Program-made: the position numbers and the translations under genes
Shown: positions 2,345-24,810 of the stretch, in pieces
How the letters are laid out: each line of letters starts with the position of its first letter
Numbering within the stretch: the stretch's first letter is position 1
The notes under the pieces: generated by a model
What the model was told of the DNA's origin: nothing
Database searches by the model: none
The model's input: the letters and a program-made list of their open reading frames with translations, nothing else
NCBI GenBank assembly: GCA_019638285.1
Contig: JAHBUB010000022.1
Span: 1-55,454, forward strand
DNA: 55,454 nt
DNA from: Cyclobacteriaceae bacterium
GTDB lineage: Bacteria; Bacteroidota; Bacteroidia; Cytophagales; Cyclobacteriaceae
Direction: 5' to 3'

Positions 2345-3390
2345 TTATTTACTATTTTGGCGCGCCCGGCCTTACCCATTTGAGTTCGAAGTGTGCTGTC
2401 TTCTATTAGTTTTATTATTTTTTCTTCCCATTGTATTGGCGATTCGCATAAAAATCCATCTACACCTTCTTCAATAATAAGCTTGTTGACCCCCACAGCG
2501 GAAGCAATTGTAGGAATTCCCAGCGCCATGTATTGAAGTGCTTTAAAACCACATTTACCCCTTGCCCAAATGTCATCCGTAAGTGGCATTAAACCGATAT
2601 CAAATTGAAGCAAGTCCTCAATCTCCGTTTCTTTTGCCCATGGTATAAAGCAAAAGGAAGCTAATTCAAGTGAAGGGTTTTTGTCAGCGATAACAATAAA
2701 CTTCAGTCTATCAAAAAATTTATTTTCAAGTGATTGAATGATTGGAATTATGATGTCAATGTATTTCAATGTAGAGTGGGTTCCTGTCCAACCAACAATA
2801 ATTTCATCTGATTTGATTTTCTCGGGATACCGCGCAGTATTATGGAGTTTTTCAGTGTCAATAGTTGTTGGGTTTAAAACGACATGGTCGTTGAATTTTC
2901 TTGCAAAATCACACAGAAAATCATTCCCGCAACTGACGGTATAACTCCATTTACAGATCGATTTAACCTTTGAGTACCATTTTAAATTTGATACAAGGTT
3001 ATTTTCTTGAGTAACGTTAGGCAGCCAAATGGCATCATCAAAGTCATAAATTATTTTCTTTTTAAACACTTTTGCTACGACCCACTCAAACCAGGGAGGA
3101 CCGACAGGAGTAGCTTCGCGGTGAATAAAAACAAAGTTATATTTTCGCAAAGAGGGTAATAACAGAAATCGCTTCACGAAACCACTTAATACTGCGTATA
3201 TCTTACGTAGGGAATGGCCAGGTGTGTATAAAATTTTCCAGGTGGAAAGCGAAAGAAAAGGATGTATATCAAAAAAATAGCCTTTTGAACGAAGCAGATC
3301 AAAATATTGCTCAAACCGAAAACGCTGCGATGGTGATTGACCGATAGGATAAGGGCAAATAAAAAGAATGGTTATTTTATTTTTCAGCAT
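2296..3390 (-). CDS. Glycosyltransferase, GT4-like (GT-B fold)
   Basis: A 364-residue cytoplasmic glycosyltransferase, likely adding one sugar to a lipid-linked glycan. The N-terminus (ITILFICPYPIGQSPSQRF) is the first beta strand and loop of a GT-B fold. The C-terminal donor-binding half has GWTGTHSTLKY near residue 200 and the GFKALQYMALGIPTIAS segment near residue 283, equivalent to the E-x7-E region of GT4 enzymes, although the first acidic residue is not obvious here. It is the only minus-strand gene in the glycan cluster and its 3' end overlaps the upstream membrane-protein gene by 49 bp. It must use its own promoter in the roughly 30-bp gap shared with the divergent ABC permease gene. 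Confidence 0.8.
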   Translation of the reverse strand: MLKNKITILFICPYPIGQSPSQRFRFEQYFDLLRSKGYFFDIHPFLSLSTWKILYTPGHSLRKIYAVLSGFVKRFLLLPSLRKYNFVFIHREATPVGPPWFEWVVAKVFKKKIIYDFDDAIWLPNVTQENNLVSNLKWYSKVKSICKWSYTVSCGNDFLCDFARKFNDHVVLNPTTIDTEKLHNTARYPEKIKSDEIIVGWTGTHSTLKYIDIIIPIIQSLENKFFDRLKFIVIADKNPSLELASFCFIPWAKETEIEDLLQFDIGLMPLTDDIWARGKCGFKALQYMALGIPTIASAVGVNKLIIEEGVDGFLCESPIQWEEKIIKLIEDSTLRTQMGKAGRAKIVNNYSVDSNSKGFLSLFE

Positions 3391-3418
3391 TTTTGCGTAG
3401 AACTATAGTAAGGCCTCT

Positions 3419-4261
3419 ATGAATGTTACGGACGATAATGATTATTACTTTGAAATAAAGCCAAAATTAGCGTTCAGTCTTAATTTAAAAGAGCTAATTG
3501 AGTATAAAGAACTCTTTTATTTTTTTACCTGGCGTGACGTAAAGGTTAAATATAAACAGACAGCATTGGGTTTCATCTGGGCTATTCTTCAGCCTTTAAT
3601 TATGATGGCCATCTTTACCTTTTTTATCGGAAATGCAATGGATGTTCCATCAGACGATATAAAATATCCCGTTTTTGCATTTTCAGGGCTGATTTTATGG
3701 ACTGTTTTTTCTTCGGGGATTACTAATGCAGGTAATAGTATGGTAAGCAATGCTCAGATTATTAAGAAGATTTATTTCCCGAGGCTTGTTATTCCCATTT
3801 CATCCATATTGGTTTCGATATTCGATTTTTTGATCGCCTTCATGGTATTTATTGTTTTGATTGTGCTTTATCATCAACCTGTTAATGTACTAAAGGCATT
3901 TATCTTTTGGCCGACAGCTTTGTTGGTTACAGTTATTGCCACGTTTGGCCCAGGATGTTTACTTGCGGCACTTAATGTAAAGTATCGCGACTTCCGATAT
4001 GTCATTCCCTTTTTAGTGCAAGCGCTTTTATTCTTAACCCCTGTCATCTATCCGATCTCTATAATATCAAACGTTTGGTTAAAGTACTTATTGGTACTTA
4101 ACCCTATGTATGCTGCCATTATACTTTTTAGAATGCCTATGATGAAAAGTGCTCCAGATTATTCCTTGGTTTTGATCAGTTTTATTTCCGGTCTTATCCT
4201 TTTTTTTATAGGACTTGCCTACTTTCGAAAGACTGAGATGTACTTTGCTGACTTGGCGTAA
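3419..4261 (+). CDS. wzm: ABC-2 type polysaccharide exporter, permease subunit (Wzm/TagG-like)
   Basis: A 280-residue inner-membrane permease that, with the ATPase encoded next, flips a completed lipid-linked polysaccharide to the periplasm. The N-terminal amphipathic stretch leads into the family signature FFTWRDVKVKYKQTALGFIWAILQPL near residues 38-60. About six membrane segments follow, ending with YFRKTEMYFADLA, a tail typical of Wzm proteins. Length matches the usual 260-290 residues. The ATG at 3419 lies 28 bp from the divergent glycosyltransferase start, and the ATPase gene follows after 12 bp, so the two exporter genes form one transcription unit. Confidence 0.9.
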   Translation: MNVTDDNDYYFEIKPKLAFSLNLKELIEYKELFYFFTWRDVKVKYKQTALGFIWAILQPLIMMAIFTFFIGNAMDVPSDDIKYPVFAFSGLILWTVFSSGITNAGNSMVSNAQIIKKIYFPRLVIPISSILVSIFDFLIAFMVFIVLIVLYHQPVNVLKAFIFWPTALLVTVIATFGPGCLLAALNVKYRDFRYVIPFLVQALLFLTPVIYPISIISNVWLKYLLVLNPMYAAIILFRMPMMKSAPDYSLVLISFISGLILFFIGLAYFRKTEMYFADLA

Positions 4262-4273
4262 AGTGTTGAATAT

Positions 4274-5509
4274 ATGAACCCAATACTTGAACTTCATTCA
4301 GTTTCCAAAAAATTCAACATTCACCATGAAGGTGGTTCATATTTAAGTTTACGTGACCGCATTGGTGACCTCGTAAAATTTAAGAAATCAAGAAAAAGCG
4401 AAGAGGAGTTTTGGGCGTTGAAGGACATCAGTTTTTCGATTAACCCTGGCGAATCTATTGGCATTATTGGAAAGAATGGAGCTGGAAAGTCAACTCTGCT
4501 TAAAATTTTATCAAAGATTACACCTCCAACAGAAGGTAAAATTATTAGCCGTGGTAGGATAGCCAGTTTATTAGAAGTGGGTACAGGTTTTCATCCGGAG
4601 CTTACCGGAAGAGAAAATGTTTATTTAAATGGATCTATTCTTGGAATGCGAAAGAGGGAAATTGATAAACACTTTGATGCCATTATCGAATTTGCTGGAA
4701 CGGAGAAGTTTTTAGATACCCCTTTGAAGCATTATTCTAGCGGGATGCAATTACGACTAGCGTTTGCGGTGGCTGCTTTTTTGGAACCTGAGATTCTTGT
4801 GATTGATGAGGTGCTTGCGGTGGGAGATGTGGAATTTCAAAAGAAGTGTTTAAGGAAAATGGAGGATGTAAGTAGTAGTGGAAGAACAATTTTATTTGTG
4901 AGTCATAATATGTCCGCGGTAGAGAGTTTGTGCAGCAAATCGGTTCTTCTGAAAAATGGACAACTTGAGTTTATTGGAAATTCATCCGATACGATTCAGC
5001 AATACATGAATTTAATGGAAGAAAATCTCTTGAGTCATACAGGGGTGATTCTTTTTAATTCTGACTTCTCCGATAAACCCATCTATAAAGCTGAAATTTT
5101 GTGTGATCAAAAAAACTCCAGCAATGCTTACATGGGTTGTCGATTAGAAATTAAGATTTATTTTAAAACTGAGATTTCGCTTGATTCGCCATTACTGGGA
5201 ATTATAATAAAAGACAGCCAGGGAATTCCAATGATTGGAGTTAATAATAGGCATTATGTTGGAAATTTGACTTCCAATGCTGTCTCAGAAGGGAGCATCT
5301 CAATGATTATTCCATACCTGCCTTTTTTCGAAGGGATTTATCACGTTGATATTCATTTTGGAAATGCTTTTGTAGATATAGAGGTTCTACGAGATTGCTT
5401 TCAATTTACAGTAGAACCAGCAAAATTTACTTCGACTGGAGAAATGCCGGACAAAAAGATCAATAGATTATTTATTAATGATATTGCGTGGCAGCTTGAT
5501 GCTAAATGA
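4274..5509 (+). CDS. wzt: ABC polysaccharide exporter, ATP-binding subunit with C-terminal Wzt domain
   Basis: A 411-residue ATPase that powers export of the glycan. The nucleotide-binding domain occupies residues 1 to about 240, with Walker A GKNGAGKST at about 66, the signature YSSGMQ at about 154, Walker B ILVIDE just after residue 170, and the switch histidine in FVSHN. Residues 250-400 form an additional beta-rich domain that matches the Wzt C-terminal carbohydrate-binding fold in position and size. In characterised systems this domain recognises a terminal modification, often a methyl group, on the finished chain before export. That fits the methyltransferase genes around it. The next gene starts 9 bp downstream. 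Confidence 0.92.
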   Translation: MNPILELHSVSKKFNIHHEGGSYLSLRDRIGDLVKFKKSRKSEEEFWALKDISFSINPGESIGIIGKNGAGKSTLLKILSKITPPTEGKIISRGRIASLLEVGTGFHPELTGRENVYLNGSILGMRKREIDKHFDAIIEFAGTEKFLDTPLKHYSSGMQLRLAFAVAAFLEPEILVIDEVLAVGDVEFQKKCLRKMEDVSSSGRTILFVSHNMSAVESLCSKSVLLKNGQLEFIGNSSDTIQQYMNLMEENLLSHTGVILFNSDFSDKPIYKAEILCDQKNSSNAYMGCRLEIKIYFKTEISLDSPLLGIIIKDSQGIPMIGVNNRHYVGNLTSNAVSEGSISMIIPYLPFFEGIYHVDIHFGNAFVDIEVLRDCFQFTVEPAKFTSTGEMPDKKINRLFINDIAWQLDAK

Positions 5510-12203: not shown

Positions 12204-15200
12204 ATGAGGTTTATTTCCGTATTATTTTCATTGTTATCAGTTGCTTTTGTTCAGGTATTTGGACAGTGTCCTACTCCTGATTTTAATATGCCTGCAAGCA
12301 CTTGCCAGCAATCGCTTATTGCTATTGATAATTTATCTTCACTCGCTGACAGCTATTCATGGGATTTCTGTTCAGGAGATTTAGCTAATTCACCCCAGGC
12401 TCAACTTTCATTTAGACTGTCTGCTTCTAATGGCCGACCCGGAATTGAATTTGCAAAGGATGAGAATACTTGGTTTGGTTTTGTGACTGGGACATTCAGT
12501 AATACTCTTTATCGACTCGAATTTGCAAATGGCACAAATGGCCTTCCTACATCCACAGAAAATTTGGGCAGCCTATCTGGAAAGTTGAGTAGTCCGGGTC
12601 AAGTGAGAATCATTAAGGAGAGTAACCAATGGTATGGGTTTATCCATAATATGACATCGGGAGAATTATTGCAATTGAATTTTGGCAATAGTCTTTCAAA
12701 TTCTTTTACAGTATCCACAATTTTTTCTGGTATAGGGTTAGGGTACGGCAACTCCGGATTTGCTATGGGTAAAGACCCGATCGATGGGTGGGTTTGTGTA
12801 ATTTCAACAGGGTTAAATCAATTTAACATAATTCGTTTGGGCAATCTTCTCGCCACACCAGGTCCATCTGATATAATTACTTCTGCAGCGGTTCCAAATC
12901 CGAACAATCTGGGAGATGTTGATCTTGTTAACATCTGTGGCTTATGGTATGGGTTTGCGGATAATTTGGGTAATGGAAATATTTATCGGCTTGATTTTGG
13001 ATTCAATCTTTTTTCAACCCCCACCATAGCTCAAGTGACTGCATTAACAGTGGGAAATCCTGGTAGACTACGCATCGCGAAAGAGGGTGAGGAGTATTTT
13101 GTGTTTGTGATAGCACTGGATGGTACCCTTACTAAACTAGAATTTGGAACAGATATTACTTCAAACCCTGTTATTGTGTCAGAAGGAAATGTTGGAAATA
13201 TTTTACAGCCGAATACCTATGGACTTGCATTGGTCAAAGAAAATTCAGAATGGACAGTTTTGGCAATCAGTCAATCCAATGGTCAGGTATATAATGTGAA
13301 GTATCCAAATATATGTACGGCCACACCAATGATCTCTAATCAATTGAATCCTGAAGTAAAATACACACAGCCGGGAATCTACAAGGTTTCACTCGAATCA
13401 ACCTATGCTTTAGGGGCTTCAGTAAAAACAAAGCCCATTACCGTTTCCTCTGTTACGGCCCCTGACATCTCCTTCACCTCTCAAAATGTTTGCGCCAACA
13501 ATGATGTTAACTTCACTTCAGTAAATGTTTCAGGGGATATCACTGACTACAATTGGGACTTTGACGACACCAATGCTTCTATAGCACAAGATCCTATTCA
13601 TCAGTTTACGATTGCGGGTGACTATAAAGTGAAATTGCAAGTAACTGCCTCCAATGGATGTAATAATCTGGCGCTAGAAACGATAACTATTTACAACGAG
13701 CCCGTTACCAATTTTGATTTGCCTACTTCTTCACCCATATGTACGAATCAGGATTATCTGTTTAATAACACTTCAACATTCGATCCAGATTCCAATCCCT
13801 CCTGGCAATGGGAGTTGAATGGGATACCGACATCAATAAATCAGGATTTGACGTATACAATTCCTATAACTACAATGCAGAGCATTAAATTGATAGCTTC
13901 AATTCCAGGTTGCTCAAGTGAGATGACCAAAACAATCAACACCGTTGAAGATGGACCACTTGTTGACTTCTCTTTTTCCAATGATTGTGAAGACAAGTCC
14001 ATAGTCTTTACGAATGAAACAATAGGAACAGTGACGGGCTATGCCTGGGATTTCGGAGATGGAAACAATTCTACCCAAACCAATCCTTCGAACACTTTCA
14101 TTGATTTTGGAAACTACGATGTGAAACTGGTGGCCTCCAATCTTGCCGGATGTATGAATACAGCCACCAAATCCATCCAAATTTACTCCAAACCACAACC
14201 CGATTTTTCATTGGACCTGCCTCCCTTCTCATGCAATGGTTCTGCTTCGCAATTCAACGACCTTACACCAAGTCCTACTGATAGCAACCTTGACAGTTGG
14301 ACCTGGAGCTTTGGCGATCCATCAAATGGAACTTCAACAACAAGAAATCCCCAATATGTGTATGCGGATGCAGACCAGTATGAGGTTAACCTGGACGTGA
14401 CCACCAATTTTGGGTGTACGGCCTCTATTCAAAAAACAATTACTATTTATCAGTCTCCCAATGCCGAGTTTACTTTTAATACAGCCTGTGTTAATCAGTC
14501 TACATTGTTTATACCCTTGTCAACATCAGGCGTGGACTTCTGGCAATGGAAAATAGGAACAAGCACTTACTATCAACAGAGTCCTACTCACATATTTGGT
14601 AGCTCTTCGAATTACAATGCAATGCTGACAGCTACCGGCTCGAATGGATGTGTTGCAGTTGTGGACAAATTGGTCAATGTGCCAATTCCTAGCAATGTTA
14701 ATTTTAGTTCTATCAATAATTGTGCAGATCAAAACACTTTATTTACTGACCTTACAACAGGACCCGACTCTGTTATTTCCCGTGTCTGGCAATTTGGGAC
14801 AATCGGCTCGGCTTCGGATGCAACGCCCACTTTTACATTTCCCTCTTCTAATACTTATCCCACCCGACTAACGGTGACCAACGAATCTGGATGTAGTTAC
14901 TCTATATCCAAAGATATCAATATCCATGAGCCTCCTGTGGTCTCGTTTACGGCCACGCCTCAAGCAGGTGCATCTCCCTTAACAGTACAACTTAAAAACA
15001 CTACAAGGAATTCAGTTTCACAACAATGGTTAGTTGTTGGTGCGAATAATTTAGCAAGTACGGAGGTTGCTCCAGCTTTTATTTTTGATGAATTGGGTGA
15101 TTATACAGTTGATCTCACTGTGGAAGATGAGTCGGGATGCATTGCCACGACCAGCAAAATAATTTCAGTAATAATTCCTGTGCTCGATGTTGAGCTCACC

Positions 15201-15749
15201 AGTCTTTCTTTAATACCTACAGCTTCGGGGGAGTCAAATATTCTATTAACAATTAAGAACCACAGTAATCTTCCTGTAAATAACATAAAGGCTATTATTG
15301 ATATTTCGGGAGCACAGTTGATAAATGAAACCATTGCTGCAACCATTCAACCCAATGAAGTCTATTCTCAGATATTATCCACAGGAATGATTAGTTCTAA
15401 AAATGGAGGGTCTTATTTGTGTGTTGAACTTGTGGTGGAAGGTGAGCTTGACAGGGAGAACAATAAGAAATGTATAAATAATAGGGCTGCCACTGTAGTA
15501 ATGGCTCCTTATCCAAATCCAAGTTCGAGTGAACTCCATCTGGAGTGGGTTTCAGCCATTCCCAGGAATGCTGAAATTAGCATTTTTGACCCAACTGGGA
15601 GAAAAGTGTTTGAGCACATTTTTTCAGACTTGGAGATGGGGTTAAACAGAGCTACAATTTCTCTGGCCTCCTTCCATCCGGGAGTTTATTATGTATTTTT
15701 TGCTTCGGAGGGGATTCGTAAAAGCTTTCCATTTGTAGTAAGAAAATAA
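12204..15749 (+). CDS. Secreted T9SS cargo: propeller-like repeats plus PKD domains
   Basis: A 1181-residue exported protein. A Sec signal peptide (residues 1-20, ending VFGQ) is followed by about 370 residues with recurring motifs of the form WYGF-x-LYRL-x-FG (for example near residues 90, 145, 245 and 300), suggesting a beta-propeller of about six blades. Roughly residues 420-995 hold repeated PKD domains, seen as YNWDFDD, YAWDFGDG, WTWSFGD and similar. After a CARDB-like segment (residues 1000-1090) the last 80 residues are a type A T9SS sorting domain (YPNPSSSELHLEW, ISIFDPTGRKVF, GVYYVFF). It probably acts at the cell surface as an adhesin or glycan-binding protein. It begins 21 bp after the glycan operon. 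The ligand is unknown. Confidence 0.85.
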   Translation: MRFISVLFSLLSVAFVQVFGQCPTPDFNMPASTCQQSLIAIDNLSSLADSYSWDFCSGDLANSPQAQLSFRLSASNGRPGIEFAKDENTWFGFVTGTFSNTLYRLEFANGTNGLPTSTENLGSLSGKLSSPGQVRIIKESNQWYGFIHNMTSGELLQLNFGNSLSNSFTVSTIFSGIGLGYGNSGFAMGKDPIDGWVCVISTGLNQFNIIRLGNLLATPGPSDIITSAAVPNPNNLGDVDLVNICGLWYGFADNLGNGNIYRLDFGFNLFSTPTIAQVTALTVGNPGRLRIAKEGEEYFVFVIALDGTLTKLEFGTDITSNPVIVSEGNVGNILQPNTYGLALVKENSEWTVLAISQSNGQVYNVKYPNICTATPMISNQLNPEVKYTQPGIYKVSLESTYALGASVKTKPITVSSVTAPDISFTSQNVCANNDVNFTSVNVSGDITDYNWDFDDTNASIAQDPIHQFTIAGDYKVKLQVTASNGCNNLALETITIYNEPVTNFDLPTSSPICTNQDYLFNNTSTFDPDSNPSWQWELNGIPTSINQDLTYTIPITTMQSIKLIASIPGCSSEMTKTINTVEDGPLVDFSFSNDCEDKSIVFTNETIGTVTGYAWDFGDGNNSTQTNPSNTFIDFGNYDVKLVASNLAGCMNTATKSIQIYSKPQPDFSLDLPPFSCNGSASQFNDLTPSPTDSNLDSWTWSFGDPSNGTSTTRNPQYVYADADQYEVNLDVTTNFGCTASIQKTITIYQSPNAEFTFNTACVNQSTLFIPLSTSGVDFWQWKIGTSTYYQQSPTHIFGSSSNYNAMLTATGSNGCVAVVDKLVNVPIPSNVNFSSINNCADQNTLFTDLTTGPDSVISRVWQFGTIGSASDATPTFTFPSSNTYPTRLTVTNESGCSYSISKDINIHEPPVVSFTATPQAGASPLTVQLKNTTRNSVSQQWLVVGANNLASTEVAPAFIFDELGDYTVDLTVEDESGCIATTSKIISVIIPVLDVELTSLSLIPTASGESNILLTIKNHSNLPVNNIKAIIDISGAQLINETIAATIQPNEVYSQILSTGMISSKNGGSYLCVELVVEGELDRENNKKCINNRAATVVMAPYPNPSSSELHLEWVSAIPRNAEISIFDPTGRKVFEHIFSDLEMGLNRATISLASFHPGVYYVFFASEGIRKSFPFVVRK

Positions 15750-18736: not shown

Positions 18737-19960
18737 ATGAGCGCAAAAATTACGATCAGCAATGGTAAACTAAATGTTCCTGACAATCCTATTGTACCTT
18801 TTATAGAAGGTGACGGTACAGGTGTAGATATTTGGCCTGCGGCAAAGCACGTTCTCGACTCAGCGGTGGAGAAGGCCTATGGAGGAAAAAGAAAAATTGA
18901 ATGGAAAGAAGTGTTAGCAGGAGAAAAGGCATTTAACAAAACCGGAAACTGGCTACCTGAAGAAACGCTTGACGCTTTTAAAGATTTGTTAGTTGGAATA
19001 AAGGGACCACTTACCACACCTGTAGGTGGAGGTATGCGGTCACTCAATGTCGCCCTTCGTCAGGAATTGGATTTGTATGCTTGTGTAAGGCCGGTGCGTT
19101 GGTTTACAGGAGTTCCTTCTCCCGTAAAAGAACCGCAAAAGACGGACATGGTGATCTTCAGGGAAAATACGGAAGACATTTATGCTGGTATTGAGTTTCA
19201 GGAAGGAACGGAAGACAACACAAAGTTTTTAAAATTATTTCAGGAAAATTTTGGTAAGAGATTTGATAAAATCAGATTCCCGGAAACGACTGCGATTGGT
19301 ATCAAGCCAGTTTCAAAAGAAGGAACAGAAAGATTGGTACGCGCTTCTATTGAATATGCTATAGCGCACAAGAAGCCGAGTCTTACCCTCGTGCACAAAG
19401 GGAACATCATGAAGTTTACTGAAGGCGCTTTCCGCGATTGGGGATATGCGCTCGCAAAGAATGAATTTGGAGCCACCTTGCTGGATGGTGGACCTTGGAT
19501 GGAGATAAATAAGGGCGGTCATAAAATAGTAATCAAAGATGTGATTGCGGATGCCTTCCTACAGCAGATTCTTTTGCGCCCAGATGAATATTCAGTGGTG
19601 GCTACATTGAATTTGAATGGTGACTATGTGTCCGATGCATTGGCGGCCATTGTGGGTGGAATAGGAATTGCACCAGGGGCCAATATCAATTATGTTACAG
19701 GCCATGCAATTTTTGAAGCCACGCATGGTACAGCGCCTAAGTATGCAGGTCAGGATAAAGTGAACCCTGGCTCAGTGATTCTGTCAGGGGTAATGATGCT
19801 AGAGCACATGGGCTGGCAAGAAGCTGCAGATATGATTGTAAAAGGATTAGAGGCTTCTATCAATGCAAAAAGAGTGACGTACGATTTCCATCGTCAAATG
19901 GAAGGAGCAACTTTATTGAAGTGCTCTGAATTTGGGAATGAGATTGTAAAAAATATGTAA
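18737..19960 (+). CDS. icd: NADP-dependent isocitrate dehydrogenase
   Basis: A 407-residue TCA-cycle enzyme that oxidises isocitrate to 2-oxoglutarate with NADP+. The bacterial homodimeric type is shown by [14 protein letters not shown]-like [14 protein letters not shown] near residue 21, the substrate loop [21 protein letters not shown] around residues 100-120 (including the serine equivalent to the one phosphorylated in E. coli), [13 protein letters not shown] near residue 138 and [16 protein letters not shown] near residue 334. Length fits. A TAATTTCG at 18628-18635 is a weak -7 candidate about 100 bp upstream, without a convincing -33 box. A strong terminator follows. Confidence 0.96.
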
Positions 19961-19981: not shown

Positions 19982-20009
19982 AAAAACCCTGGCCTTGCTG
20001 GGGTTTTTT
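19982..20009 (+). terminator. Rho-independent terminator after icd
   Basis: AAAAACCC at 19982-19989 pairs with GGGTTTTT at 20001-20008, with weak extra pairing inside the loop and a continuing T-rich run. It lies 21 bp after the icd stop codon. Confidence 0.85.
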
Positions 20010-20049
20010 GTTTTGGATATCTCTAACTTCATTACCTAAACCAAATAGG

Positions 20050-21180
20050 ATGAAACAATTATTTTTTATCATCTTTTTATTTACCTGCTTAAATGATGGG
20101 ATAGCACAGAAGAGGGCTAGGGACTATGGAATTGAAATAGGAGTGCTGAAACCTGGAACCAATAATGCGATCACTGATGTAAAGGGGGTATTGGTAGGCC
20201 ATGTTACTTTGATGGAAGGGGAAAATATCAGAACAGGGGTAACAGCCATTGTGCCACACGATAAAAATATTTTTCAAAATAAAGTACCGGCTGCTATTTA
20301 TGTGGGCAATGGTTTTGGAAAACTGGCTGGATCCACCCAGGTGGAGGAATTGGGGAACATAGAGACACCCATCGTTCTTACCAATACTTTAAGCGTAGCG
20401 CAGGGACTGGAGGGGTTGATTGACTATACCCTGTCTTTTAAGGAAAACGAAAATGTAAAGTCAGTCAATGGCATGGTAGGAGAGACCAACGATGGTGGAT
20501 TGAACGATATTCAGGGGAGGCATGTGAAAAAGGAGCACGTGGTATCTGCTATAAAAAATGCAAAAGGCGGGAAGGTAGAGGAAGGATCGGTGGGTGCCGG
20601 CACAGGCACCATTTGCTTTGGATTTAAGGGGGGCATTGGCACTTCTTCGAGGGTATTGCCTAAAGAATTGGGAGGTTACACGGTGGGCGTTTTAACGCAA
20701 ACTAACTTTGGTGGGGTGCTACAGATTGATGGGGTTCCAGTTGGGGAAGAGTTAGGTCAATATGCATATAAGAAATCAATTGAAGGATCTGTGGATGGCT
20801 CTTGCATGATGGTAGTAGCCACAGACGCTCCGTTGGATGCCAGAAATTTAAAGCGATTAGCGAAGCGCGCCATTATGGGCTTGGCAAAAACGGGAGGCAT
20901 CGCCTCCAATGGAAGTGGGGATTATGTAATTGTATTTTCTGCCAATGAATCTGTACGTATACCCTTCGATGCTGATAAGGCCACAGATACATTTACACTT
21001 CTTCGTAATGACAACATGAGCCCACTGTTTATGGCCACTATTGAGGCTACAGAAGAGGCAATCATCAATTCTTTATTTGCAGCCAAGTCAGTAGGAAAAT
21101 TGGAGAATGAAGAAGAAGTGAAACCGCTGCCAATAGACAAAGTGATTAAGATGATGAAGAAGTACAATCGGATTCGATAA
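20050..21180 (+). CDS. P1-family (S58, DmpA-type) peptidase with signal peptide
   Basis: A 376-residue exported hydrolase of the DmpA/BapA family, whose members are N-terminal nucleophile aminopeptidases or beta-peptidases that cleave themselves into two chains. I chose ATG 20050 because it gives a clean signal peptide (KQLFFIIFLFTCLNDGIAQ); the longer frame would start inside the icd terminator. Family motifs are ITDVKGVLVGHVTL near residue 41, TGVTAIVPH near residue 63, and GAGTGTICFGFKGGIGTSSRV near residues 180-202. In the last one, S199/S200 lie where the autoprocessing nucleophile is expected. YTVGVLTQTNFGG follows. Substrate unknown; presumably periplasmic. Confidence 0.85.
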   Translation: MKQLFFIIFLFTCLNDGIAQKRARDYGIEIGVLKPGTNNAITDVKGVLVGHVTLMEGENIRTGVTAIVPHDKNIFQNKVPAAIYVGNGFGKLAGSTQVEELGNIETPIVLTNTLSVAQGLEGLIDYTLSFKENENVKSVNGMVGETNDGGLNDIQGRHVKKEHVVSAIKNAKGGKVEEGSVGAGTGTICFGFKGGIGTSSRVLPKELGGYTVGVLTQTNFGGVLQIDGVPVGEELGQYAYKKSIEGSVDGSCMMVVATDAPLDARNLKRLAKRAIMGLAKTGGIASNGSGDYVIVFSANESVRIPFDADKATDTFTLLRNDNMSPLFMATIEATEEAIINSLFAAKSVGKLENEEEVKPLPIDKVIKMMKKYNRIR

Positions 21181-21486: not shown

Positions 21487-24348
21487 ATGCCTGATATGAA
21501 GAATTTTATAAATATGCCCATACCCTCGCTGATCAAGGTTAGAAATCTTATCTTCTTATTGACATTATTTGTATTCTCCTCTTGTCAGAATCAAGAGGCC
21601 TTGAATTGGGTGATTGGTCTTCAAGCTGGTCAACTTGAAGCACCTGCCCCTGTGGGCACTGTTAATTTTGAATTTGATATTTCAGATATCAATACCGCCT
21701 ACGATCCAAGTTTTCTTTATGATGCTTTGCAAAATAATAAGAATATAGACCTATATACCATTTTTCTTGATGTCACGGACCCAGCAGCAGGCAGCTTGAC
21801 ACAAATTAGAGAAATGAGTGGGGATATGGTAGGCAGAGTCATTTTCCGGGTTAAAAACACGGTCAGTGGTTCAAACTCCATCTCGTTCAATGTAAATAGC
21901 GAAACCAATGAAATTGGTTTCCAAATGATATATGAATCGAACACCTATACAGGTTATATGATATTCACAGATGTGCAAAAAATAAATAGAACACTATATG
22001 TTAAAAGCAGTATGTCATCTGGTTCATTCATTGCGGATACAGATGGCGATGAAATACCCGATGCCTTAGATAATTGCCCTGCTGTAGCTAATCCTGATCA
22101 GGCAGACGCGGACTCAGATGCTATTGGAGATGTGTGTGATGTTTGCTACGGCAATAACGCATCTGGTGATGCTGACGGAGATGGTTATTGCGCCAGTAAC
22201 GACTTTGATGATAACGATGCCAATAAATATCCTGGTGCGCCTTGCGATGATGGAGATGCATGTACCAGCGGAGATGTTTATGATTCTAATGGGTCTTGTA
22301 TTCCGGGACCTCCTTTAAATTGTGATGATGGTGACCCTAATACTATTGATTATTGTGATCAAATCAACGGTGGCTGCGCGCACACACCAATATTGCCTGA
22401 TGGCGATGGCGATGGAATACCCGATGCCTCAGACAACTGCCCTACTGTAGCCAACACTGACCAGGCAGATGCAGACTCAGATGGTATTGGAGATGTCTGT
22501 GACAGTTGTCCTTTGGATGCTTCCAATGTTGATAATGATGGTGATGGCTATTGTGCTGCTCAAGATTTTGATGACAATAATGCCAATAAATATCCTGGTG
22601 CACCCTGTGATGATGGAAATGCATGTACGATTGGTGAGGTGTATGACGCCAATGGAAATTGTATACCCGGATTATTTGCAGATGACGGAACCCCATGTGG
22701 ATCCGGACTATGTAATGGAGCTGGAGTTTGCGTAGAACCTGATATGGATGGCGATGGAATACCTGATGCCACAGACAACTGTCCTTCAACCGCTAATGCT
22801 GACCAGGCAGATGCAGACGGAGATGGTGTGGGTGATGTGTGTGATTGTGGCCCTGGTTATATAAGTGAGTTGTCGGGGGGTGCTGTTATATGTATCGATA
22901 TTAATGAATGTACAGATGGAACTAGCAATTGCGGTCCAGGAACAACTTGCGAAAACACAGATGGTTCTTTCATTTGCGTTCCGATTGATACGGATGGTGA
23001 TGGTATTGGGGATAATTCAGACAATTGTCCATCTGATGCCAACGCTGATCAGGCAGACGCAGACTCTGATGGTATTGGAGATGTGTGCGATATCTGTATT
23101 GGAATTGATGGAACCGGAGATGCGGATGGCGATGGTTATTGCGCGAGTGTAGATTGCGATGACACCAATGCTTCGATTAACCCGGGAGCTGTTGATATAG
23201 CTGGAAGTGGTATTGATTCAAACTGCGATGGCAGCTATTTATGGTATGTGGATGCAGATGGTGATGGCTATGGCTCAAGCGCTACGGTGTCCTCCACCAA
23301 TGCAAGTCCAGGTGCAGGCGAATCAGCTACTGCTGATGATTGTGATGATTTGGTAGCAACAACAAACCCAGCAGGTATAGATGTAGCCGGCTCAGGTATT
23401 GATTCAAACTGCGATGGCAACTACTTATGGTATGTGGATGCTGATGGTGATACCTATGGCTCAATGGTTACAGCTTCCTCTACCAACGCAAGCCCTGGAG
23501 TAGGCGAATCAGCCACCTCCGATGATTGCGATGACACCAATGCCTTGATTAACCCAGGCGCAGTTGATGTAGCTGGAAGTGGTATTGATGCGAACTGTGA
23601 TGGCATCTTTGACAAAGTAGATCAAACCATCAGCTTTGACCAAACGGTTAACCATACTTTAGGAGACAACTCCTTTGCGCTTAATGCAACCAGTAGCTCA
23701 GGCCTCGATGTTGTATTCTCTACCTCTTCGGATAAAGTTCAAATCAACTCTAGTTTGGTAACTATCGTGAGTGCAGGCAGAGTAAGCATTGCAGCGAATC
23801 AACCGGGCAACGATAGTTATAATCCGGCTGATGAAGTAGCTCAAAGTTTTTGTATCAACCCAGAGAAGCCGATAATCTCAATTGGAGGTAGAAACACCGC
23901 ATCGCCCACGCTTACTTCCAGCAGCGCAGCGGGCAACCAATGGTTTTTGAATGGTAGTGCTATTGCTGGGGAAACAGGTCAATCGCTAGGTATCACAGGC
24001 CAGGGACAATATGCTGTTCAGGTAAGTGCAGATGATTGCGTAAGCGAGTTATCGGAGATTAAAGTATTTATAATCACAGGTGATGGGAATTCAGCAGATG
24101 ATACTGGTGAAATGCTCGTGTATCCCAATCCGGTGCGTGATCGATTGTTTATAAGCCTTCAGGGATTCTCAAAAACAGGAACACTTGAGATGGGTATATA
24201 TGATCTTAGTGGCAGATTGATAATGAATAAGCAAGTTCGCGCTGGTGATATTGAGGAGGCGGATGTTAAACATTATGCAGCAGGTAAATATTTAATAAGG
24301 ATTGCGCAAGGCAGAAAAATTGTGAACCGTCAGTTTATTAAAGAATAG
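21487..24348 (+). CDS. Secreted calcium-repeat protein: TSP3, EGF-like and MopE-type repeats, T9SS tail
   Basis: A 953-residue exported protein. The N-terminus has a hydrophobic segment ending in FSSC (near residue 33), a possible lipobox. After a ~150-residue N-terminal domain come four thrombospondin type 3 blocks (D-x-DGDGIPD, DNCP, ADxDGIGDVCD; around residues 185, 305, 418 and 500), two Cys-rich modules (GAPCDDG-x-ACT), and a calcium-binding EGF-like module (DINEC ... CENTDGSFIC, residues 473-500). Three MopE-type metal-binding repeats (DDCDD ... GIDSNCDG, residues 555-710) follow, then Ig-like segments and a type A T9SS sorting domain (YPNPVRDRLFI, YDLSGRLI, AAGKYLI). Ligands and partners are unknown. 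A small lipoprotein gene follows after 3 bp. Confidence 0.87.
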   Translation: MPDMKNFINMPIPSLIKVRNLIFLLTLFVFSSCQNQEALNWVIGLQAGQLEAPAPVGTVNFEFDISDINTAYDPSFLYDALQNNKNIDLYTIFLDVTDPAAGSLTQIREMSGDMVGRVIFRVKNTVSGSNSISFNVNSETNEIGFQMIYESNTYTGYMIFTDVQKINRTLYVKSSMSSGSFIADTDGDEIPDALDNCPAVANPDQADADSDAIGDVCDVCYGNNASGDADGDGYCASNDFDDNDANKYPGAPCDDGDACTSGDVYDSNGSCIPGPPLNCDDGDPNTIDYCDQINGGCAHTPILPDGDGDGIPDASDNCPTVANTDQADADSDGIGDVCDSCPLDASNVDNDGDGYCAAQDFDDNNANKYPGAPCDDGNACTIGEVYDANGNCIPGLFADDGTPCGSGLCNGAGVCVEPDMDGDGIPDATDNCPSTANADQADADGDGVGDVCDCGPGYISELSGGAVICIDINECTDGTSNCGPGTTCENTDGSFICVPIDTDGDGIGDNSDNCPSDANADQADADSDGIGDVCDICIGIDGTGDADGDGYCASVDCDDTNASINPGAVDIAGSGIDSNCDGSYLWYVDADGDGYGSSATVSSTNASPGAGESATADDCDDLVATTNPAGIDVAGSGIDSNCDGNYLWYVDADGDTYGSMVTASSTNASPGVGESATSDDCDDTNALINPGAVDVAGSGIDANCDGIFDKVDQTISFDQTVNHTLGDNSFALNATSSSGLDVVFSTSSDKVQINSSLVTIVSAGRVSIAANQPGNDSYNPADEVAQSFCINPEKPIISIGGRNTASPTLTSSSAAGNQWFLNGSAIAGETGQSLGITGQGQYAVQVSADDCVSELSEIKVFIITGDGNSADDTGEMLVYPNPVRDRLFISLQGFSKTGTLEMGIYDLSGRLIMNKQVRAGDIEEADVKHYAAGKYLIRIAQGRKIVNRQFIKE
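23152..23620 (+). repeat. Tandem 186-bp coding repeats (MopE-type units)
   Basis: The motif encoding D-C-D-D recurs at 23152, 23338 and 23524, exactly 186 bp (62 codons) apart. The units share long runs, for example around GGTATTGATTCAAACTGCGA, but differ at many synonymous positions. The third copy is truncated after the N-C-D-G motif. The regular spacing points to past unequal duplication. Confidence 0.85.
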
Positions 24349-24351
24349 AGT

Positions 24352-24810
24352 ATGAAAAATCTAAAATCATTAAAGCTTTTAATTGGCGTATTTCTGATCA
24401 TTCAAGCTGCGCTGATGACCTCCTGCAAATCGGAAACGGAATTAACCCAAAAGGAATTGGTAACTGCCCAGTTAGTGGCTGATGGGGATTCCTGGGGGGT
24501 GGAAAATGTGACAGTCGATGATGTAGATGAGAGTGGCTCGTTTAACAATTTTTCAATAAAATTTGAAGACAAGAAATTTACAACTGTAAACGGGGGCGTA
24601 GTGTGGCCCCCATCCGGCACGTGGTCATTCACCTCTGAAGAAGCCACTGCATTTACAAGAGATGATGGAATAAAGGTATTGATTGAAAGTTTAGTAGGGG
24701 ATCAATTAAGTATTTCATTTGAATGGGCGGAGACCACCTTGGATGCAGAAGGAGGCAGGATCACATCCCGAAAGGGCAAGCACAAGTTTAAGTTTAAAAG
24801 AAAAAGATAA
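24352..24810 (+). CDS. Small lipoprotein, function unknown
   Basis: A 152-residue protein with a lipoprotein signal peptide (LIGVFLIIQAALMTSC; the lipobox Cys is residue 25). The mature part is rich in beta-forming and charged residues, with TWSFTSEEATAFTRDDGIKVLIESL near residues 88-112 resembling lipocalin-like Bacteroidota lipoproteins. I do not recognise a named family. It starts 3 bp after the calcium-repeat protein gene, so they are co-transcribed and perhaps act together at the envelope. The basic tail (GKHKFKFKRKR) is unusual. Confidence 0.72.
   Translation: MKNLKSLKLLIGVFLIIQAALMTSCKSETELTQKELVTAQLVADGDSWGVENVTVDDVDESGSFNNFSIKFEDKKFTTVNGGVVWPPSGTWSFTSEEATAFTRDDGIKVLIESLVGDQLSISFEWAETTLDAEGGRITSRKGKHKFKFKRKR

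Follow-up and report, generated by a model that had tools for sequence, protein, structure and literature searches.

In animals, thrombospondins are defined by epidermal growth factor (EGF) repeats followed by a contiguous run of thrombospondin type 3 (TSP3) repeats and then by the thrombospondin C-terminal domain, and they bind other rods or the matrix through their calcium rod. A bacterial TSP3 structure has reportedly been described by Dai et al. 2017, the title of which refers to cysteine pairing within the repeat and to calcium binding by the repeats. The TSP3 linker of the bacterial protein TraB is predicted to bind calcium (PMC12045341). TraB proteins with TSP3 linkers are also treated in another paper, where the Cys-rich repeats of TraA are proposed as a stalk and the first four of them are dispensable one at a time (PMC6372800). 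The open-licence literature searched yielded no protein from a bacterium that combines EGF with TSP3 modules, and no TSP3 repeat in a cargo of the type IX secretion system (T9SS). Here we analyzed P0001, a mosaic protein encoded in a 55,454-nucleotide (nt) stretch of Cyclobacteriaceae bacterium DNA (GenBank assembly GCA_019638285.1, contig JAHBUB010000022.1), the whole of which is called the window. Its likeness to thrombospondins is superficial, but the mosaic itself is real and unusual. We propose, with a probability of about 0.5 for the reading as a whole, that P0001 is a T9SS-exported, calcium-stiffened and fast-shuffling stalk that displays a head domain and is accompanied by a cognate lipoprotein. 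The modules and the sorting tail can be read from the sequence, and from them we infer that P0001 is exported, is loaded with calcium, forms a stalk and has the lipoprotein as its partner.

An earlier reading of the DNA letters without database searches (the sequence-only reading) had listed type 3 repeats, three MopE sites and a T9SS tail in this protein, and all of these scored above their Pfam cut-offs. TSP_3 matched in four stretches (53.8 bits, cut-off 25), the MopE motif (PF11617) in three stretches (51.6 bits, cut-off 27) and the T9SS sorting domain at the C-terminus (45.5 bits, cut-off 27; NCBIfam TIGR04183, 38.8 bits, cut-off 23). The four TSP3 repeats are the only TSP_3 places in the genome at E-values up to 0.01, and each carries predicted calcium-ligand motifs by pattern. 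The genome also encodes the T9SS translocon SprA (PF14349, E = 3.9e-146). The features of P0001, with the evidence for each, are as follows.

21487..24348, + strand: mosaic T9SS-tailed protein P0001, 953 amino acids (aa) (open reading frame and Pfam)
21487..21585, + strand: signal sequence with a lipobox-like F-S-S-C end, Cys33 (by eye)
21595..22032, + strand: N-terminal head domain, without a Pfam match (Pfam scan, genus search)
22033..22143, + strand: TSP3 repeat 1 (Pfam, genome scan, DNA repeat analysis, pattern)
22144..22395, + strand: Cys-rich, MopE-like stretch 1 with DGDGYC, PGA and CDDG motifs (DNA repeat analysis; supported by a Dicty_CTDC match under the Pfam cut-off)
22396..22506, + strand: TSP3 repeat 2 (same evidence as repeat 1)
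22507..22737, + strand: Cys-rich, MopE-like stretch 2 (DNA repeat analysis)
22738..22845, + strand: TSP3 repeat 3 (same evidence as repeat 1)
22846..22893, + strand: C5-C6 half of an EGF module, Cys454 to Cys469 (Cys positions, PDB alignments, ortholog alignment)
22897..22977, + strand: C1-C4 half of a calcium-binding EGF module, DINEC...FIC (Pfam, genome scan, pattern)
22987..23094, + strand: TSP3 repeat 4 (same evidence as repeat 1)
23152..23608, + strand: three MopE-type motifs with a 186-nt period, at 23152, 23338 and 23524 (Pfam, DNA repeat analysis)
23608..24081, + strand: C-terminal module, a QTISF repeat plus a GNQWFLNG domain, common to many genus paralogs (genus search)
24118..24345, + strand: type A T9SS sorting domain (Pfam, NCBIfam)

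The EGF module was found to be cut and permuted. Its placement between the third and fourth TSP3 repeats in the sequence-only reading was correct (residues 471-497), and so was the calcium signature, but the complete six-Cys module was not there: only C1-C4 are present, corresponding to positions 1-29 of the 43 in the EGF_CA profile. The stop-free six-frame translation of the window contains the signature, DINEC...C...CENTDGSFIC, a single time and in exact form. The pattern used, which we take to be the PROSITE-type D-x-D/N-E-C ... C-x-N-x4-F-x-C, arose in 30 of 200,000 shuffles of the Asp- and Cys-rich residues 180-720. Pfam EGF_CA matched residues 471-498 with 25.3 bits (cut-off 27) in the whole-protein scan and with 31.3 bits, above the cut-off, in the six-frame genome scan, where no other stretch of the 4.0-Mb genome matched EGF_CA at E-values up to 1. 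After C4 (Cys497), C5 and C6 are absent and the next Cys (514) lies inside TSP3 repeat 4. The C5-C6 half, CGPGYISELSGGAVIC (Cys454 to Cys469, CGPGY...C), directly precedes DINEC, and the six Cys thus do not run in the order C1-C6. Because the C5-C6 half stands before the C1-C4 half, the module has the appearance of a piece of a tandem EGF array, severed on either side at the C4/C5 border. PDB alignments to CD97 and EMR2 chains likewise cross the junction between two successive EGFs. Judging from the Cys positions, three subdomain pairs could still form in the half-plus-half module (454-469, 475-488 and 482-497), and the Cys of the TSP3 repeats would pair inside each repeat.

The sequence-only reading had also seen in this region the EGF-then-TSP3 core of animal thrombospondins. 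The component motifs are present, but such a core is not supported, as the EGF is permuted and just one TSP3 repeat follows it. In DNA repeat analysis, a unit of 185 nt recurs three times (22036, 22399 and 22987) and one of 117 nt four times, and the internal repeat unit of P0001 at the DNA level is a TSP3 repeat plus a Cys-rich, MopE-like stretch. The EGF therefore interrupts this series after TSP3 repeat 3 and heads no TSP3 run. P0001 resembles thrombospondins and COMP in its TSP3 repeat sequence and in having a calcium-EGF signature within the same protein; in contrast to them, it has four scattered TSP3 repeats, a permuted half EGF and a T9SS tail. Membership in the thrombospondins was rejected, since the TSP3 repeats are scattered and no thrombospondin C-terminal domain was among the Pfam hits at E-values up to 1. 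In PDB searches, P0001 matched chains of COMP and thrombospondin-2, and a weaker match was to the bacterial chain 5wtl (an OmpA family protein), which presumably belongs to Dai et al. 2017. Such OmpA-type proteins and TraB are, like P0001, surface proteins of bacteria that carry TSP3 repeats, but P0001 has no OmpA domain among its hits, carries a T9SS tail and is far richer in Cys-rich modules. Two NCBIfam families with TSP3-type repeats in common with P0001 were also rejected, as their scores were far under the cut-offs: MtsC (NF047638, 75.8 bits, cut-off 350) and the Omp28-related selenoprotein (NF045500, 93.5 bits, cut-off 200, best stretch residues 151-232).

To the 3′ side of P0001, and to its 5′ side, lie genes that recur at the loci of its orthologs.

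18737..19960, + strand: isocitrate dehydrogenase gene (icd), upstream neighbour common to orthologs (Pfam, NCBIfam)
20008..21180, + strand: peptidase S58 (DmpA-type) gene, upstream neighbour common to orthologs (Pfam)
24352..24810, + strand: P0002, a small lipoprotein and probable partner of P0001 (family searches, loci, alignment)

The order icd - dmpA - surface protein - small lipoprotein is common to the window, to locus L026 (Flammeovirgaceae UBA2338) and to genome G017 (locus L138); in L026, dmpA and the surface protein gene are separated by an extra open reading frame (ORF; 3372-4499). The L026 ortholog shares with P0001 its neighbourhood, its C-terminal half and the TSP3-EGF junction. 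It differs in its FG-GAP N-terminus and its single TSP3 repeat, which at 21.5 bits does not reach the cut-off of 25. It carries a T9SS tail and five MopE motifs, and its C5-C6 half is followed by a complete EGF_CA module (38.0 bits, above the cut-off) with no TSP3 repeat after it. In the alignment, the window has TSP3 repeat 4 where L026 has C5-C6 of the EGF. The G017 ortholog keeps the head domain (47-51% identical) and has five MopE motifs, no EGF and one TSP3-like repeat by eye, for which there was no Pfam match at E 0.001. By eye, the F-S-S-C signal end is present in the G017 ortholog and absent in L026. Among 60 genus genomes, the head domain was found in the window's own genome and in G017, with a marginal match (E = 9e-4) in G736. 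Because L026 lacks TSP3 after the EGF and G017 lacks the EGF, the thrombospondin-like order is not conserved. The orthologs show an apparent exchange of modules in the middle of the protein.

EGF_CA modules were rare in the relatives of the host. At E-values up to 1e-4, one of 395 Bacteroidota-phylum genomes, the window's own, had a match; at E-values up to 0.001, two of 295 family genomes did, and only that of the window's genome was above the cut-off. Among 62 genus genomes one was above the cut-off, and 11 others gave weak matches (E = 0.007-0.05), seven of them across stop codons. Few candidates were scored per genome in these searches (at most 17 among the matches listed in the phylum search), so that misses are possible, and the genome sample left out the EGF-bearing L026 genome. 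In the phylum of Myxococcus dinghuensis (G755, locus L062), hereafter the Myxococcus phylum, 91 of 193 genomes had EGF_CA, 90 of them above the cut-off, and a smaller set reached through fetched loci had it in 3 of 28 genomes. By BLAST, the P0001 EGF module was 54% identical to that of L026 (62.4 bits) and 50-54% identical to the best Myxococcus-phylum modules (best 59.7 bits). When the module was compared with bacterial and metazoan sequences, as the sequence-only reading had suggested, the best single phmmer domain scored 33.3 bits among the bacterial loci listed (L178) and 21.2 bits among animal PDB chains; the ranking favors bacteria, and it is limited by the PDB being a poor sample of animal EGFs. 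Since EGF_CA is frequent in the Myxococcus phylum and its modules match nearly as well as that of the ortholog, an animal donor is not needed. Among the sequences compared, the P0001 EGF appears most like bacterial modules.

The Myxococcus-phylum proteins with calcium-EGF arrays (L123, L179, L182 and L171, the source of the 50-54% identities) have several EGFs each, some ending after C4, whereas P0001 has one permuted EGF; the two that were scanned (L123 and L171) had no MopE or T9SS-tail match, unlike P0001. We collected 38 distinct bacterial EGF ORFs from the loci of the Myxococcus-phylum search and of the smaller set; one of them, L119, is from a metagenome-assembled genome titled proteobacterium. 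Twenty-seven were complete, two (L178) had unusual spacing and in nine the last unit stopped after C4, with another Cys a few residues on in several of the nine. A TSP3-like repeat was detected by pattern in one of the 38 (L171), a count that may be low because most of these loci have just 1.5-kb flanks. In the L171 ORF (1-1431), seven EGF_CA stretches and DUF4215 precede a single TSP3-like repeat, so that EGF stands before TSP3 in a different phylum as well; Pfam TSP_3 did not match this repeat at E 0.001, and the end of the ORF resembles what we take to be a MYXO-CTERM.

P0002 begins 3 nt past the P0001 stop codon. Its family was found at 88 places in 43 of 60 genus genomes (E up to 1e-5) and in 11 of 296 phylum genomes (13 candidates scored per genome among the matches listed), and the lipid-anchor Cys is invariant in all 20 aligned members. 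The best match from each of 30 genomes, the window's included, was taken from the 88 places in 43 genomes. At these 30 loci, a T9SS-tail ORF lies directly upstream of the lipoprotein gene in 26 (25 by the motif alone; inspection by eye removed the false positive L153 and added the false negatives L162 and L156), and as a background, such a tail is carried by 2 of the 44 reading frames in the window that are at least 150 aa long. In L142 and L153 the gene directly follows an ORF with a coiled end and no T9SS tail, presumably resembling an intramolecular-chaperone (S74-type) tail, and in L168 it follows an acetyltransferase-like ORF by eye. The ORF in L146 (G006 C107) has no visible signal sequence and lies behind icd with neither dmpA nor a large surface ORF between; it is possibly a remnant of the icd - dmpA - surface protein - lipoprotein locus. 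In the converse direction, 12 of the first 20 other genus hits of the P0001 C-terminal module had a P0002 hit directly downstream.

In the phylum search, 5 of 16 P0002-family places were behind a T9SS tail, 8 formed another group and 3 were neither. By eye, the members of that group (L201, L202, L203, L204, L207, L209, L211 and L213) lie behind lpxA-like and ABC-transporter-like genes; they come from several genera, and the window's own genome is included (G000 C2).

Twenty partner ORFs in 10-kb stretches had stop-to-stop lengths of 569-2294 aa. Of the 20, 19 had an NQW-type domain near the end and none had TSP3, EGF or MopE by pattern; because 17 of the 20 had been chosen for a visible T9SS tail or a C-terminal hit, these counts are no test of linkage. 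Over 23 pairs, the mean identity was 41% in the last 245 aa and 18% in residues 61-400, and the lipoproteins averaged 46%. A shared C-terminal end and the lipoprotein thus accompany differing front parts. Co-evolution of tail and lipoprotein was not supported, because the front part correlates almost as well with the lipoprotein and both correlations vanish without close copies. Lipocalin_4 matched 9 of 20 P0002 relatives weakly (E up to 0.5, best 1.2e-4) and P0002 itself not at all, and a PDB search with the lipoprotein alignment returned nothing useful (best E = 0.045).

In the mechanism that we favor, P0001 would be exported via the T9SS and then oxidized. Calcium bound at the TSP3 repeats, the EGF half and probably the MopE sites would stiffen the middle of the protein into a stalk, which would hold the N-terminal domain off the cell as a putative binding head. 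The stalk modules would be swapped rapidly between relatives, and with such rapid swapping the EGF would act as a further stiff spacer rather than as a signaling ligand. The C-terminal module and the lipoprotein would keep the surface protein in place, with P0002 as a cognate outer-membrane partner that may retain, cap or export proteins with such a C-terminal module. A more specific form of this proposal is tentative, and we give it less than an even chance: the gene would be one cassette of a previously undescribed system of two genes for surface display in this genus, with a shared C-terminal module, an exchangeable stalk and head, and a dedicated lipoprotein (VWPASGTW-like core). The calcium-EGF of P0001, cut at a subdomain boundary, would then fold with its two halves permuted, flanked by TSP3 repeats.

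Several observations weigh against the favored mechanism. A signal sequence with a lipobox-like end is unusual in a T9SS cargo, as it would combine a lipoprotein signal with a T9SS tail. Eight of the first 20 C-terminal-module hits had no lipoprotein hit directly downstream, and the partner is therefore not obligatory. Over the 23 pairs, the tail-lipoprotein correlation (r = 0.68) was hardly above the front-lipoprotein correlation (r = 0.64); with close copies removed (14 pairs), these fell to 0.24 (reached by 572 of 5000 permutations) and 0.14 (543 of 5000), neither of them significant. The structural check proposed in the sequence-only reading was carried out on residues 30-600 with 23 relatives but yielded no confident structure: the mean predicted local distance difference test score (pLDDT) was 45.3, with zero residues at 90 or more, and the P0002 model, with one relative in its alignment, reached 51.4, both too poor for a fold search. 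Two short strands in the model of residues 30-600 (458-461 and 468-471) were not used as evidence.

Other explanations of the mosaic were considered. The EGF may have lost C5-C6 by recombination and persist without function in a stalk that is neutral and turns over fast, as suggested by the complete EGF of L026, the replacement of its last third by TSP3 repeat 4 in the window and its absence from G017. This decay is possible but rather doubtful, as the calcium-signature positions are kept in P0001, the six Cys could still make three subdomain pairs and 9 of the 38 bacterial EGF ORFs likewise have a last unit ending after C4. Direct horizontal acquisition of the EGF, with an animal or a protist as the donor, would account for its near absence from the phylum sample (1/395) and the genus (1/62 above the cut-off). 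We regard it as very improbable, given that bacterial modules outscored the animal chains compared, that EGF_CA modules are common in another bacterial phylum and that L026 has a related EGF module at the same site.

With respect to function, it is unlikely, slightly more so than decay of the EGF, that P0001 is a protein of cell-cell cohesion or the matrix, the calcium rod itself binding other rods or matrix as in animal thrombospondins. The NCBIfam model of MtsC matched P0001 (E = 3e-21, best stretch residues 183-384), and the name of this myxobacterial TSP3 protein suggests such a role for MtsC. However, the match is far under its cut-off and is accounted for by the TSP3 repeats alone, no MYXO-CTERM model was among the NCBIfam hits to P0001, and the function of MtsC was taken from the NCBIfam model description, the one paper found to hold the name together with Myxococcus being unrelated. 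Capture of metals, in which copper or another metal would be held by the MopE motifs and Asp-rich repeats to be taken up or stored, is consistent with the three MopE motifs above the cut-off and with a PDB match to chain 2vov (E = 2.7e-5). This match spans just 42 residues (543-584), the Asp-rich MopE motif may equally hold calcium, and none of the nearby genes (icd, the S58 peptidase, and those for lumazine synthase and ketopantoate hydroxymethyltransferase, which are further near neighbours) is metal-related, making this role improbable. A second T9SS-tailed protein in the window (12204-15749, 1181 aa) has PKD domains (PKD_4, four stretches). A sigma-70 promoter scan, with a model that may not suit the phylum, gave four sites, all on the minus strand and fewer than the 9.7 expected by chance.

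The pairing with a lipoprotein is a more promising lead than the likeness to thrombospondins. If the proposed reading is true, EGF and TSP3 combinations like those of the animal matrix would arise in bacteria through module exchange, and the bacterial EGF pool would be large enough to supply them without an animal donor. The paired lipoprotein would then offer a testable handle on the retention or assembly of T9SS surface proteins in this group.

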